Origin: Alphaproteobacteria bacterium
Lineage (GTDB): Bacteria > Pseudomonadota > Alphaproteobacteria > JAJTHO01 > CANGYM01
Direction of reading: 5' to 3'
NCBI GenBank assembly: GCA_947458235.1
Contig: CANGYP010000007.1
Location: 1 to 33,668, forward strand
Length of the DNA stretch: 33,668 bases
Shown piece by piece: positions 3,480 to 23,437 of the stretch. Position numbers and translations under genes: made by a program. Numbering within the stretch: the first letter of the stretch is position 1; the number at the start of each line of letters is the position of its first letter. The notes under the pieces were generated by a model, which made no database searches, was not told the DNA's origin, and saw nothing but the letters and a program-made list of their open reading frames with translations.

Positions 3480-3770
3480 ATGACGATGTACGCAGATCTC
3501 ATGAGGTCGTTTTTTACAGACGGCACGCAGGCCGTGACCGTACCCTCGCTGGTGGATTTTTTGTCCTATAAAAAAAATCAGAAGAAAAAAAAAATACATG
3601 ACAGGGATGATCAAAAAACCCTTTCAGATCTTATGAAAAGCATCCGCTTTGTTGCGCATCCATCCCCAAAACCCAAAAACACGCAGGGAATTTTAGAGGC
3701 CCTGCATCAGGAATGCGATCATCAAAATACCCTAACCGCCCGTTTTTTGTACCATTTGCGCGATGTGTAG
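3480..3770 (+). CDS. Hypothetical protein with internal poly-A tracts
   Basis: ORF MTMYADLMRSFFTDGTQAV...KKNQKKKKIH... downstream of the FliS-like gene, same strand; A8 (3570-3577) and A10 (3585-3594) in the coding sequence. Confidence 0.5.
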   Translation: MTMYADLMRSFFTDGTQAVTVPSLVDFLSYKKNQKKKKIHDRDDQKTLSDLMKSIRFVAHPSPKPKNTQGILEALHQECDHQNTLTARFLYHLRDV

Positions 3771-3791
3771 GGTTGTGATAATCTGTGGGGT

Positions 3792-4469
3792 ATGCGCGTC
3801 ACCAGCCCTTTATTTAACCCCTTTCCCCATGTTGTGCATGGCTTTGGTGGCAGAGATACCTCTGCTGAGGCTATGGCCAACCATCATGGCCTCGGATCCC
3901 TTGTGCTTTTGGATCAAATTCATGGGGATGTGATTCATTCTATTGATGCTCCGCCCTCTGAACGTCCCAAGGGGGATGGGTGGATCACCGCCGCCCCCCA
4001 CATCGGGCTGGGGATCAAAACAGCCGATTGTGGATGTGTTTTGTTTTATGCGGAGGATACGGGCCGCATCGGGGCCGTTCATTCTGGATGGCCGGGCGTT
4101 TATCACAACATTGTGGGGCGCTGCGTGGAGGCCATGACCCAAAATCCCGCCTACCTGTATGCTGTTTTGGGGCCTTGTATTCGGCAGGAAAGTTATCAAG
4201 TCGATGATGCCTTTCGGCAACGGTTTTTGGAGCGTCATCCCGCCGCAAACGTTTTTTTTCAACCCGATCCATCCCACGAAAACCGTTTTTTGTTTGATAT
4301 GTCTGGCATGATTTTGGGGCAACTCAGGGATATTGGTGTGGTTCATGTCCACGATGTGGGCATCAATACCTATACCCATCCTGATTTTTACAGCCACCGG
4401 CGGGCCACCCATGCTGGCACGGCGGACGCCGAAGGCCGCCAGATTTCTTTCATTGCCCTGACATCCTAA
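3792..4469 (+). CDS. pgeF: Laccase-domain (YfiH/PgeF) purine nucleoside phosphorylase / peptidoglycan editing factor family
   Basis: HGFGGRDTS..., [43 protein letters not shown] motifs of the DUF152/laccase family. Confidence 0.88.
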
Positions 4470-4483
4470 CAGAAAGCATCATC

Positions 4484-5077
4484 ATGACACCCCGCACCGC
4501 CACGCTGGAACGCATCACCCACGAAACCAAAATTCAGGTGACGTTAACACTGGATGGTACGGGGCAGCGGACGATCAAAACTGGCATTGGGTTTTTGGAT
4601 CATATGTTGGATCAACTGGTCAAACACAGCCAAATGGACCTGATTTGCCTAGCCGAGGGAGATTTGCACATCGATGCGCACCATACCGTAGAGGACACGG
4701 GATGGGCCATTGGATCGGCCTTAAAACAGGCTTTGGGGGATAAACGGGGCATTCAGCGGTATGGCCATGCCTATGTGCCCATGGATGAAACCCTGACCCG
4801 CGTGGCTTTGGATTTGTCGGGGCGTCCGTTTTTGGTTTGGCATTTGGAGTTTTCCCAACCACGACTGGGGGAGATGGACACCGAGCTGTTTCGGGAGTGG
4901 TTTCAGGCCTTCGCCATGGCCTCTGGCACAACCCTGCACGTTGAAACCCTATACGGTATCAACAATCATCACAAAATTGAATCAACGTATAAGGCTTTGG
5001 CCTTGGCTCTGAAAAAAGCTTTTGAGCGGGATCCTGTCCGTTTGCATGATCTGCCTTCCACGAAGGGGGCGTTATGA
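4484..5077 (+). CDS. hisB: Imidazoleglycerol-phosphate dehydratase
   Basis: [59 protein letters not shown]. Confidence 0.96.
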
Positions 5078-5454
5078 TGAATTTAAAAGATTTTTTTGAT
5101 GATTACGAGTTCCATGACAGCCCGCTTGATGATATTGTGTTTGACAAACAAACAGAGCAACTGTCTCTTTCCATTGACTTATGTCTTTTCAACCAAAAAG
5201 GATATCAACAAGGGGGCCCTGAAAACCAAAAGGGAACACTCGTCTTTTCCCAAGTTAAACAATTCATTGCCGATCCTGACATAGACATCATTGATTGGAA
5301 GACACAAGATGGTGAGATTCTTGACGCTCGCCTTGACGATAAGGGGATGATTGTCATCCTTTTTAGTGTTTCTAACTATTCATTAAAACATGAAACCGTC
5401 TATGAAATTACATGCTCTGCTCAAAAAGCAACATGGAGACCTTCGGAAAGTTAA
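5074..5454 (+). CDS. Hypothetical protein (FHDS motif; function unknown)
   Basis: ATGA start/stop overlap with hisB; lower GC than hisB; no family recognised with confidence. Confidence 0.6.
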
Positions 5455-5460
5455 AAGAAA

Positions 5461-5477
5461 CCCCGATAACATCGGGG
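5461..5477. terminator. Bidirectional hairpin terminator between convergent genes
   Basis: CCCCGAT-AAC-ATCGGGG; on the minus strand followed by TTTCTTTT. Confidence 0.75.
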
Positions 5478-5503
5478 CGTCAATCTAGCCATAAAAACAA
5501 CGT

Positions 5504-5791
5504 CTAGGCATGAAAAGAAACCATCTGGGCCGCCTTGCGCTTGCCCACATTGCGAGACAACACCAACGATGTTTCCAACAAAGAAGACACCACAAAGGTC
5601 CGCACCGCCGAGGTAAAGCCCCCCTCTGTTTGCATATCCGCCACTTCGCTGCAAATGTCATTGATGTGACAGGACCTGCTTTTGCAAATGTAATCCAAGG
5701 CCTGCCATAATGTCGGCTCCAGACGAATGCTGGTGCGGTGTCCGTTCACCACAACGTTGCGACAGACCAGAGAACTTTTGTGTTGTGACAT
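5504..5791 (-). CDS. Ribbon-helix-helix domain protein
   Basis: VVVNGHRTSIRLEPTLWQALDYICKSRSCHINDICSEV resembles the alphaproteobacterial RHH_4-type family; start chosen at MSQHKSS. Confidence 0.75.
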   Translation of the reverse strand: MSQHKSSLVCRNVVVNGHRTSIRLEPTLWQALDYICKSRSCHINDICSEVADMQTEGGFTSAVRTFVVSSLLETSLVLSRNVGKRKAAQMVSFHA

Positions 5792-5803
5792 GGAAAACCT
5801 CAT

Positions 5804-5864
5804 GCAATCATAGGATGTTTTTTCTATAAAACACACCATGGTATAAAGAGCAACCATAGGATGT
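5804..5864 (-). promoter_or_regulatory. Paired 15-bp direct repeats upstream of RHH gene (candidate operator)
   Basis: gcaaTcataggatgt (5804-5818) and gcaaCcataggatgt (5850-5864), 14/15 identical, 46 bp apart, with a TATAAA-like box between them. Confidence 0.4.
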
Positions 5865-5881
5865 GTTTTTCGAGTGCAATT

Positions 5882-6628
5882 CTACCCAATGTTGTATTTT
5901 GCCCACACAATGAACTCTTGGTTGCCTTCGGGGCCGCGGATGGGGCTGGCGACGATGTTCATGGGGGTCCAATCCTGATGCCGCAACCACGCCATCACGC
6001 CGTTGCACACGTCTAGGTGGATTTGGGGATCGGACACCACGCCTTTGGTGCCAATGTCGTGTTGGGCGGCCTCGAACTGGGGTTTTACCAGCGCCAGCAG
6101 CGTGGCCCCAGAGCGAGCCAAGGTCAACGGTGCCGCCAAAACCTTGCGCAGGCCGATAAAACTGGCATCACAGACAATCACATCCAGCGGCTCAGGGATT
6201 TGCTGGTGAGTCAGGGTGCGGGCGTTGGTTTTTTCATACACCACCACGCGGGGATCTTGGCGCAACCGTTGATCCAACTGGCCATACCCTACATCCACGG
6301 CATATACCCGCGCCGCTCCATAAAACAACAAAACATCGGTAAATCCACCCGTTGAGGCCCCCACATCCAGCGCCACCACCCCCCCAAGGTCCACCCCAAA
6401 GGTTTTCACCGCATGATCCAATTTTTTGCCCCCCCTAGAGACCCACGTTTTTTCTTCGGGGTCTTTGCAGGTTAAGTGGGCGTTTTGATCCACCAGACTG
6501 GCGGGCTTGGACAGGGGCAGCCCTTGACAAAACACCAATCCAGCGGCAATTTTACTCTGCGCCTCTGTGCGGGAAGCCGCCAAACCCATGGCCACCAAAC
6601 GCTGATCCGCCCGTATTTTTTGGGACAT
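5882..6628 (-). CDS. tlyA: TlyA family rRNA 2'-O-methyltransferase / hemolysin-like
   Basis: S4 domain N-terminus (KIRADQRLVAMGLAASRTEAQSKIAAGLV), WVSRGGKKLDHAVKTFGVDL, ALDVGASTGGFTDVLL, LVKPQFE. Confidence 0.93.
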   Translation of the reverse strand: MSQKIRADQRLVAMGLAASRTEAQSKIAAGLVFCQGLPLSKPASLVDQNAHLTCKDPEEKTWVSRGGKKLDHAVKTFGVDLGGVVALDVGASTGGFTDVLLFYGAARVYAVDVGYGQLDQRLRQDPRVVVYEKTNARTLTHQQIPEPLDVIVCDASFIGLRKVLAAPLTLARSGATLLALVKPQFEAAQHDIGTKGVVSDPQIHLDVCNGVMAWLRHQDWTPMNIVASPIRGPEGNQEFIVWAKYNIG

Positions 6629-21531: not shown

Positions 21532-21819
21532 TCAGGTGGATCGCCGCTGTAGCTCCGCCACGATATCATCGGGATGAATACCCTGATTTAAGCATAACAC
21601 CAAAACATGGTAAAACAAATCGGCCATTTCATAAATCGTGGCGTCTTTGTCTTGTTGAACGGCGGCTAGGGCGACTTCGAGGCCCTCTTCCCCCACCTTT
21701 TGGGCAATTTTGGGGGTTCCACTGGCCAACAGGCGGGCTGTGTAGGAGGTTTCGGGATCCCCTCCCCGCTTGGCGGCCAAAGTTTGGTAGAGATCATCAA
21801 GAAAGGTTTGCAGGGTCAT
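21532..21819 (-). CDS. hisE: Phosphoribosyl-ATP pyrophosphohydrolase
   Basis: SYTARLLASGTPKIAQKVGEEGLEVALAAVQQDKDATIYEMADLFYHVLVLC. Confidence 0.95.
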   Translation of the reverse strand: MTLQTFLDDLYQTLAAKRGGDPETSYTARLLASGTPKIAQKVGEEGLEVALAAVQQDKDATIYEMADLFYHVLVLCLNQGIHPDDIVAELQRRST

Positions 21820-21848
21820 AAGGACTTGTCAACATCAAGGGGATATGG
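21814..21848. repeat. 35-bp direct repeat, copy 1 (overlaps hisE start codon)
   Basis: GGTCATAAGGACTTGTCAACATCAAGGGGATATGG, identical to 22620-22654. Confidence 0.97.
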
Positions 21849-21877
21849 AAAACACTATTGACAGTGTATTCCTGAAA

Positions 21878-22489
21878 CTAAACAGAATTTTTGGTAATGA
21901 TAGAGATAAAATGGAGATCCCTATCAAATAATTTATTAAAGGGAAACCTGTATAAATTAAGATTTAGAATGGATTTTTGAACATTTGCATGAACTTTCTT
22001 AAACAGTTGTTGCCATTCGGTTTTGGAGAGATAATTGTATGGTAAGGCAATATTGAAACGTTTGTTTCCTATATCATCCATGAATTTTAGAAATAGGTAG
22101 TCTAATTTGTTTTTGCAAATATGATCTTTGATAATAACACCTATTCTAGCAACGCGCAGGGATTCGGATAGTAATTCTTCTGCAGTATGAGTATGATGTA
22201 AAACATCAATAAAGCTAACGTAATCAAAAGAAGAGTCAGGAAAAGGAATATGTGTTCCATCAAAAAGAGTTACAGGGATTTTTGTTTTTTCTCTTATTAA
22301 AACATCGATACCATGAACTTCAATTTTTTTGTTGTTAGAAGCAATCATTGAGGCGATGGTGCCATCACCACAACCAACATCGAGTAGTGTTTTATCGGTT
22401 TCTAATAAAGATAGGACATGATTTGATAATTGAATGGTACGCCGATCAAAAATAAAATTTTTGTGAAAAAATTCAATTAAATTTACCAC
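21878..22489 (-). CDS. Class I SAM-dependent methyltransferase (Methyltransf_11-like), AT-rich
   Basis: LLDVGCGDGTIASMIA, IDVLIREKTKIPVTLFDGTHIPFPDSSFDYVSFIDVLHH; GTG start at 22489 with AAGGAG 7 nt upstream (the longer ORF begins at 22531). Confidence 0.85.
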   Translation of the reverse strand: MVNLIEFFHKNFIFDRRTIQLSNHVLSLLETDKTLLDVGCGDGTIASMIASNNKKIEVHGIDVLIREKTKIPVTLFDGTHIPFPDSSFDYVSFIDVLHHTHTAEELLSESLRVARIGVIIKDHICKNKLDYLFLKFMDDIGNKRFNIALPYNYLSKTEWQQLFKKVHANVQKSILNLNLYRFPFNKLFDRDLHFISIITKNSV

Positions 22490-22619
22490 AAAGGAACTCC
22501 TTTTTTGAAAATTTTTATGCTTTAATTTCAAGCTAAGACAGATTAAGGGAGATCAAAAGAATTCTCATGCTAGCTGCTAAATCCACCTTTTAAATTCGGT
22601 ATGTTGCTCTATTTAACTA

Positions 22620-22654
22620 GGTCATAAGGACTTGTCAACATCAAGGGGATATGG
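22620..22654. repeat. 35-bp direct repeat, copy 2 (upstream of yebC)
   Basis: Identical to 21814-21848. Confidence 0.97.
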
Positions 22655-22696
22655 CAAAAAACAAAGGCATTTTACAGGATATCAGAGATCAACGCA

Positions 22697-23437
22697 ATGG
22701 CCGGTCATTCCCAGTTTAAAAACATCATGCACCGCAAAGGGGCCCAAGATGCCAAGCGCGGAAAACTCTTTACCAAGCTGATCAAAGAAATCACTGTGGC
22801 CGCCAAGCAGGGAGACCCCGATCCTTCCAAAAACCCCCGTTTGCGGGCGGCTTTGGCGGAGGCTAGGGGGCACAATATGCCCAAAGACAACATCGATCGG
22901 GCCATCAAACGCGCATCAGAGGTGGGCGTGGGCGACGATTATGTCAGCATTCGCTACGAAGGCTACGGTCCCAAAGGATCAGCGGTGATTGTGGAAACCC
23001 TAACGGACAATCGCAACCGCACGGCGTCAGAGGTCCGTGCGGCCTTTAGCAAATATAACGGCAGTTTGGGCGAAACGGGGTCGGTAAGTTTTTTGTTTTC
23101 CTATGTGGGGGAGATTGTATATCCCGAAACCATCGCCCCCTTTGATCCCGTGTTCGAGGCGGCAGTTGAGGCCGGCGCAGAAAACTTAGAGGCGCATGAG
23201 GGTCATTATCTGATCACCACCCATGCGGATGATTTGCATCACGTGGCCTCGGCCCTTAGTGCCCGCTATGGGGACCCTTTGCAGGCCAAGCGCATTTGGG
23301 TGCCCGAGGCATTGGTCACCCTGCCCCCCGATGATGCCGCCACGTTGGCCAAGTTGGTGGACGTTTTGGAGGACAATGATGATGTGCAGACGGTTTACAC
23401 CAACGTGGCTCTGCCCGTCCAAACGGATGATGCCTGA
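22697..23437 (+). CDS. yebC: YebC/PmpR family protein (transcription/translation factor)
   Basis: [39 protein letters not shown]...[14 protein letters not shown]. Confidence 0.97.

Follow-up and report, generated by a model that had tools for sequence, protein, structure and literature searches.

Variable single genes can occupy the space between two conserved genes without bringing along any mobility genes, as in the minimal mobile elements of Neisseria. Direct repeats are not known to be a feature of such loci. Species comparisons have in addition revealed small variable segments, or genomic islets, with short direct repeats at their borders (Touzain et al. 2010, PMC2884548). Homology-facilitated illegitimate recombination in natural transformation has been found in Acinetobacter, Pseudomonas stutzeri and Streptococcus pneumoniae, as reviewed in the same paper (PMC2884548). 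Among transposable elements, IS1549 and IS1634 (IS1634 family) duplicate their targets over long and variable stretches, from tens to hundreds of bases (PMC2266710). Here we analysed a locus from a small-genome alphaproteobacterium (draft assembly of 1.40 Mb in 97 contigs, 94.7% complete), situated in a window of 33,668 nt, the whole stretch of DNA under study.

The sequence GGTCATAAGGACTTGTCAACATCAAGGGGATATGG forms a perfect 35-bp direct repeat in this window. One copy is found on the hisE side (21814-21848) and one on the yebC side (22620-22654), both read on the plus strand; the preliminary description had reported the pair as exact and at these positions, and so we found it. Exactness ends at 35 bp, where the preceding bases are G versus A and the following bases A versus C, while the repeat spans 39 nt if one mismatch is allowed. 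Beyond these two copies, no match with three or fewer mismatches was detected in the window or in the 1.40-Mb assembly, and the number of 35-mer matches expected in shuffled window sequence was 0. Thus, the genome-wide search identified a unique site and not a common genomic repeat, a possibility that had been raised earlier. The left neighbour, hisE (21532-21819, minus strand), is an open reading frame for phosphoribosyl-ATP pyrophosphohydrolase (PF01503, E=2.5e-24), and copy 1 holds its first six bases, as had been noted before. Copy 2 keeps the original order into the right neighbour yebC (YebC/PmpR-type; 22697-23437, plus strand), the product of which shares 96% amino acid identity with that of the same-genus genome. 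Between copy 2 and yebC lies the remainder of the original hisE-yebC spacer as a single copy (22655-22696). The segment enclosed by the repeats (21849-22619) comprises 771 bp with 30.9% GC, compared to 53% for the genome, and carries one gene, which bears out the early impression of an AT-rich segment with a single methyltransferase. With 0.245, the GC3 of this gene falls below that of every one of 472 host frames (stop-to-stop frames of at least 300 codons; mean 0.59, sd 0.065, minimum 0.34). By composition, the insert is foreign to its host (GC3 0.245 versus 0.59 ± 0.065).

If the repeats arose by insertion, the decisive check is the hisE-yebC junction of a close relative. The only other sampled member of the genus, genome G001, shares ~84% nucleotide identity with the genome studied here, so that the two species are ~16% apart. 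On contig 15 of G001, hisE adjoins yebC; the site is there once, and the 771-bp cassette is missing. When mapped onto this junction, the two flanks of the cassette (84-90% identical) overlapped by exactly 35 bp, and the junction, GGCATAGGACTTGTCAACATCAAGGGGATATGGCAAAAAACAAAGGCATTTTA, has a 48-bp identical stretch in common with the copy-2 side of the window. Since this empty site has one copy, the event was an insertion with a 35-bp target duplication, and the ancestral hisE-[35 bp]-yebC junction that the preliminary description had postulated is thereby corroborated. That is, the methyltransferase segment is an insertion with an exact 35-bp target duplication between hisE and yebC. Both copies in the window carry GGTCATAAGG where G001 reads GGCATAGG, which amounts to two changes within the first ten bases of the site. 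Because both have bases that differ from G001, they are most simply understood as copies of the resident sequence of this lineage, neither of them being borne by an attP. At a threshold of E=1e-15, no methyltransferase homologue was detected in G001 or in two genomes of the same order, and the insertion most likely dates from after the split of the two sampled species. Outside the genus, none of the sampled yebC loci was adjacent to hisE; outgroups can therefore not polarise gain versus loss, and the ancestral state is attested by one genome.

The gene of the insert (21878-22489, minus strand) encodes a class I SAM-dependent methyltransferase of 203 amino acids, as judged by profile and family alignment. 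It matches Methyltransf_11 (PF08241) with E=2e-12 and 47.7 bits against a curated cut-off of 21.2, and it has the glycine-rich motif LDVGCGDG. The GTG start at 22489 with a strong Shine-Dalgarno sequence had been recognised correctly (AAGGAG at 22498-22503, minus strand); an in-frame alternative TTG start is located at 22531. No equivalog cut-off for a named function (MetW, UbiG, BioC and others) was reached, the best score being that of MetW with 39 bits versus 189.5. The protein belongs to a rare subfamily. Among more than 1,100 genomes we found only four clear relatives (41-43% identity), and the alignment of the five members revealed the shared motifs LDxGxGxG, DVLHH, KDH and a GN...LP-x-N block. 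In two of the four, the methyltransferase adjoins one particular type of polyprenyl-phosphate-sugar-like glycosyltransferase. The neighbour in the third is, as recognised by eye, presumably a GtrA-like gene, and that in the fourth a gene we take to be fatty-acid-desaturase-like. The genome studied here encodes galE and, next to it, a GT2 of that same glycosyltransferase type on contig 9 (2867-5019), upstream of radA; this glycosyltransferase is 60% identical to its counterpart in genome G449 and did not turn up in the part of G001 that was read (79%; 1.11 of 1.4 Mb). Given the glycosyltransferase neighbours in the relatives and the GT2 and galE genes on contig 9, it is plausible that the methyltransferase acts on a lipid-linked sugar or on some other component of the envelope, for example a glycolipid.

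Insertion at this site affected the two neighbours differently. hisE and yebC are divergent, with an original spacer of 71 bp between them, and the 35-bp duplicate starts six bases inside hisE and stops 29 bp upstream of the hisE start. The proposal that both genes keep their shared promoter and leader thus holds for the yebC side, which retains the full spacer, but not for hisE, which regains only 29 bp. The spacer part at 22655-22696 now lies beyond the methyltransferase gene, which itself points toward hisE. As the insertion has separated hisE from most of the conserved spacer, the methyltransferase probably shares the transcription of hisE. No consensus promoter was recognised near the duplicated site, and no Rfam match came near the gathering score. 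The stop codon of the methyltransferase gene is closely followed by the hairpin GGAA-T-ACACTG-TCAA-TAGTGT-T-TTCC (21847-21872, minus strand; -10.7 kcal/mol, z -2.8), which forms the 3' end of the transcript and whose last two bases (CC) fall within copy 1. The scan for consensus terminators did not report it; the hairpin may be a weak terminator-like structure that ends part of the methyltransferase transcription. Across positions 22627-22674, 48 bp of the spacer are identical in both species (positions 1431-1478 of the G001 sequence), the genomes of which are ~16% different; the first bases of the single-copy spacer continue this stretch, the identity holding apart from the last few bases. 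Such identity between species suggests a constrained control region.

Next to an ancestral junction, the preliminary description had considered that the site might be att-like and served in trans, or that the insert might be a single-gene cargo unit; neither idea gained support. Among the open reading frames of the insert there is no transposase, transposase fragment, recombinase or integrase, and terminal inverted repeats are at chance level (the best score, 8, was also attained in 45% of shuffles). The cassette has no second copy in its own genome, and no DNA relatives were detected in plasmid and phage DNA. With tblastn, the methyltransferase gave no match in phages and, in plasmids, only matches of 27-31% to generic methyltransferases, while protein scans yielded none in viral contigs and one 31% relative in genome contigs. 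The 24-base core of the 35-mer had no viral-contig match, and, with two genomes of the genus to compare, the 35-mer was not found to recur with other cargo or on mobile DNA. The genome encodes two tyrosine recombinases, one Xer-like and one P4-type integrase beside tRNA-Ser. The position of the latter, the sole non-Xer integrase, marks a target different from the hisE-yebC site. IntI and attI of an integron were not found; the Xer-like recombinase has no visible cassette array, and the other recombinase is the P4-type at tRNA-Ser. DDE_Tnp_1 transposase genes or fragments were all located at contig ends, and neither they nor the two recombinases give a hint of a link to hisE-yebC. In sum, nothing shows that the insert belongs to a mobile element family, and such an assignment is not supported. 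A hairpin with a T run at the end of the insert would fit a retroposed, RNA-derived copy; this reading was dismissed because the hairpin is weak and nothing else spoke for it. The P4-type integrase, right after tRNA-Ser on contig 68 (~3700-6500), marks an integrated element in its own right, the next genes of which we take by eye to be a small HTH regulator followed by an ImmA-like metallopeptidase.

We also compared ~1.0 Mb of the genome with ~1.0 Mb of G001 and searched for insertions with direct repeats. Throughout the ~1.0 Mb compared, 13 large indels were listed, and an exact long target duplication was present only at hisE-yebC. A 1853-bp case on contig 12 and another case on contig 3 were rejected as target-duplication insertions, since they look like local duplications. 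Contig 8 offered a partial parallel, which was found separately. The insertion there has an exact repeat of 22 bp that lies within a second, diverged version of the nuoF 3' end; as a diverged 3'-end duplication, it was not accepted as a clean target duplication. The 1.2-kb segment behind nuoF on this contig (21725-22960) encodes a 295-aa protein without Pfam match, and the gene for this protein is followed by the second, diverged nuoF 3' end, after which comes a Fic-domain gene. An AT-rich one-gene insertion relative to G001 (39% GC; contig 1, 6329-7438) carries a ParA-type ATPase gene and has no flanking direct repeats. By eye, we take its flanking genes to be those of a shikimate-kinase-like protein and a TypA-like GTPase. 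On contig 42 (2615-3220), a tandem duplication with a distance of 390 bp was observed, the duplicated gene being presumably, again by eye, a Flp-type pilin.

Since no mobile-element feature was found and both repeats are most simply read as copies of resident sequence, we favour capture by host functions; the single clean event among the indels of ~1.0 Mb counted for a one-off. The locus thus probably, though by no means surely, originated by one-off illegitimate capture of a complete foreign methyltransferase transcription unit into the hisE-yebC spacer. A 771-bp foreign fragment with one complete methyltransferase transcription unit would have entered the 71-bp spacer at two offset breaks ~35 nt apart, which would have been filled in and joined to the incoming DNA. 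Template switching between sister chromosomes could have led to the same outcome. The offset of 35 nt is long for simple break repair, and no junction microhomology was found that identifies the joining step. A Ku gene was not found in the assembly (94.7% complete), which makes classical non-homologous end joining unlikely. The incoming DNA may have been acquired by transformation. ComEC and DprA are present in the genome, so DNA uptake is possible; both proteins, however, are widespread. The insertion would have been tolerated as hisE regained its start codon and the nearest 29 bp, while yebC kept its whole upstream region. Transcription that once reached hisE would now first cross the methyltransferase gene, or hisE might use a new promoter within the cassette.

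Other routes can lead to a single gene between two perfect repeats. RecA-dependent single crossover (Campbell integration) of a circular DNA that already carried the 35-bp segment would give an identical product structure, and 35 bp slightly exceeds the RecA threshold of ~30 bp for E. coli as quoted in PMC2884548. However, such a circle must have carried the exact hisE leader of this lineage, so that the origin of the duplication is shifted elsewhere, and searches of plasmid and phage DNA yielded no relative; we consider this route unlikely. If instead the 35-mer were an attachment site, a recombinase acting in trans could have placed a circular one-gene unit there. The perfect 35-bp end repeats and the clean empty site do have the appearance of attL and attR, and two tyrosine recombinases exist in the genome. 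But these are the Xer-like enzyme and the P4-type integrase beside tRNA-Ser, the 35-mer is unique in the genome, its core has no viral-contig match, and the cassette is single-copy. Moreover, the duplicate includes the hisE start, which differs in G001 and would be an unusual choice of att site, and the bases differing from G001 are common to both copies. Site-specific integration therefore appears quite unlikely. It is very unlikely that a route so far undescribed, for instance one driven by a trans-acting recombinase or integrase, brings single genes without further baggage into the promoter regions of divergent genes, with ~35-bp duplications that leave both neighbours functional.

Transposons offer a source of long duplications, since those made by IS1549 and IS1634 are variable and range from 8 to 514 bp (PMC2266710), and DDE_Tnp_1 transposase genes or fragments do occur in the genome. 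The insert could then be the remnant or passenger of such an element, but it has no terminal inverted repeats, no transposase or fragment thereof and no other copy, which makes this origin very unlikely. Alternatively, the genus ancestor might already have had the cassette, and G001 would have lost it through a precise deletion from repeat to repeat. Short repeats are common endpoints of deletions (PMC2884548), which also leave a perfect empty site, and the outgroups without hisE-yebC adjacency cannot polarise the change. Yet the foreign composition is not ameliorated, the 35-bp copies are identical although the species are ~16% apart and differ at two of the first ten site bases, and an earlier insertion with target duplication would still be needed. 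Such a loss is highly improbable. An assembly artefact, in which unrelated contigs were joined via a common 35-mer, might be suspected in a draft of 97 contigs, many assembly k-mers being longer than 35 bp. This would require a third, AT-rich molecule in which the 35-mer borders the gene at either end, whereas the cassette is a complete gene with a ribosome site and each flank is collinear with G001; we regard an artefact as highly unlikely.

The insert illustrates well how a single gene was recently acquired and is, on present evidence, a one-off and no new element. It represents a clean case in which one foreign gene was added to a streamlined genome without a visible mobile element, with junctions and empty site known. 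Such cases help to show how host repair captures genes, and why surviving insertions spare the control regions of their neighbours. As minimal mobile elements are generally described, the locus resembles them in having one accessory gene between conserved genes and no mobility genes; unlike them, it is known with one occupant and one empty site. With IS1549 and IS1634 it shares the long target duplication, but the hisE-yebC insert comes without transposase and inverted repeats. Homology-facilitated illegitimate recombination can add foreign DNA at a dissimilar site by host functions alone, and in this it is like the proposed capture; as outlined in PMC2884548, however, the incoming DNA has to carry a homologous anchor, and no trace of one is left at hisE-yebC. 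The genomic islets (PMC2884548) are likewise short accessory segments present in one genome only, with direct repeats and no known mobile element, and they have been ascribed to illegitimate recombination, as we propose for the hisE-yebC insert. While the islet repeats are mostly shorter than 30 bp and often linked to deletions, the repeat described here is 35 bp long, perfect and made from the target, and, unlike the islets, the segment between hisE and yebC carries a whole foreign gene.
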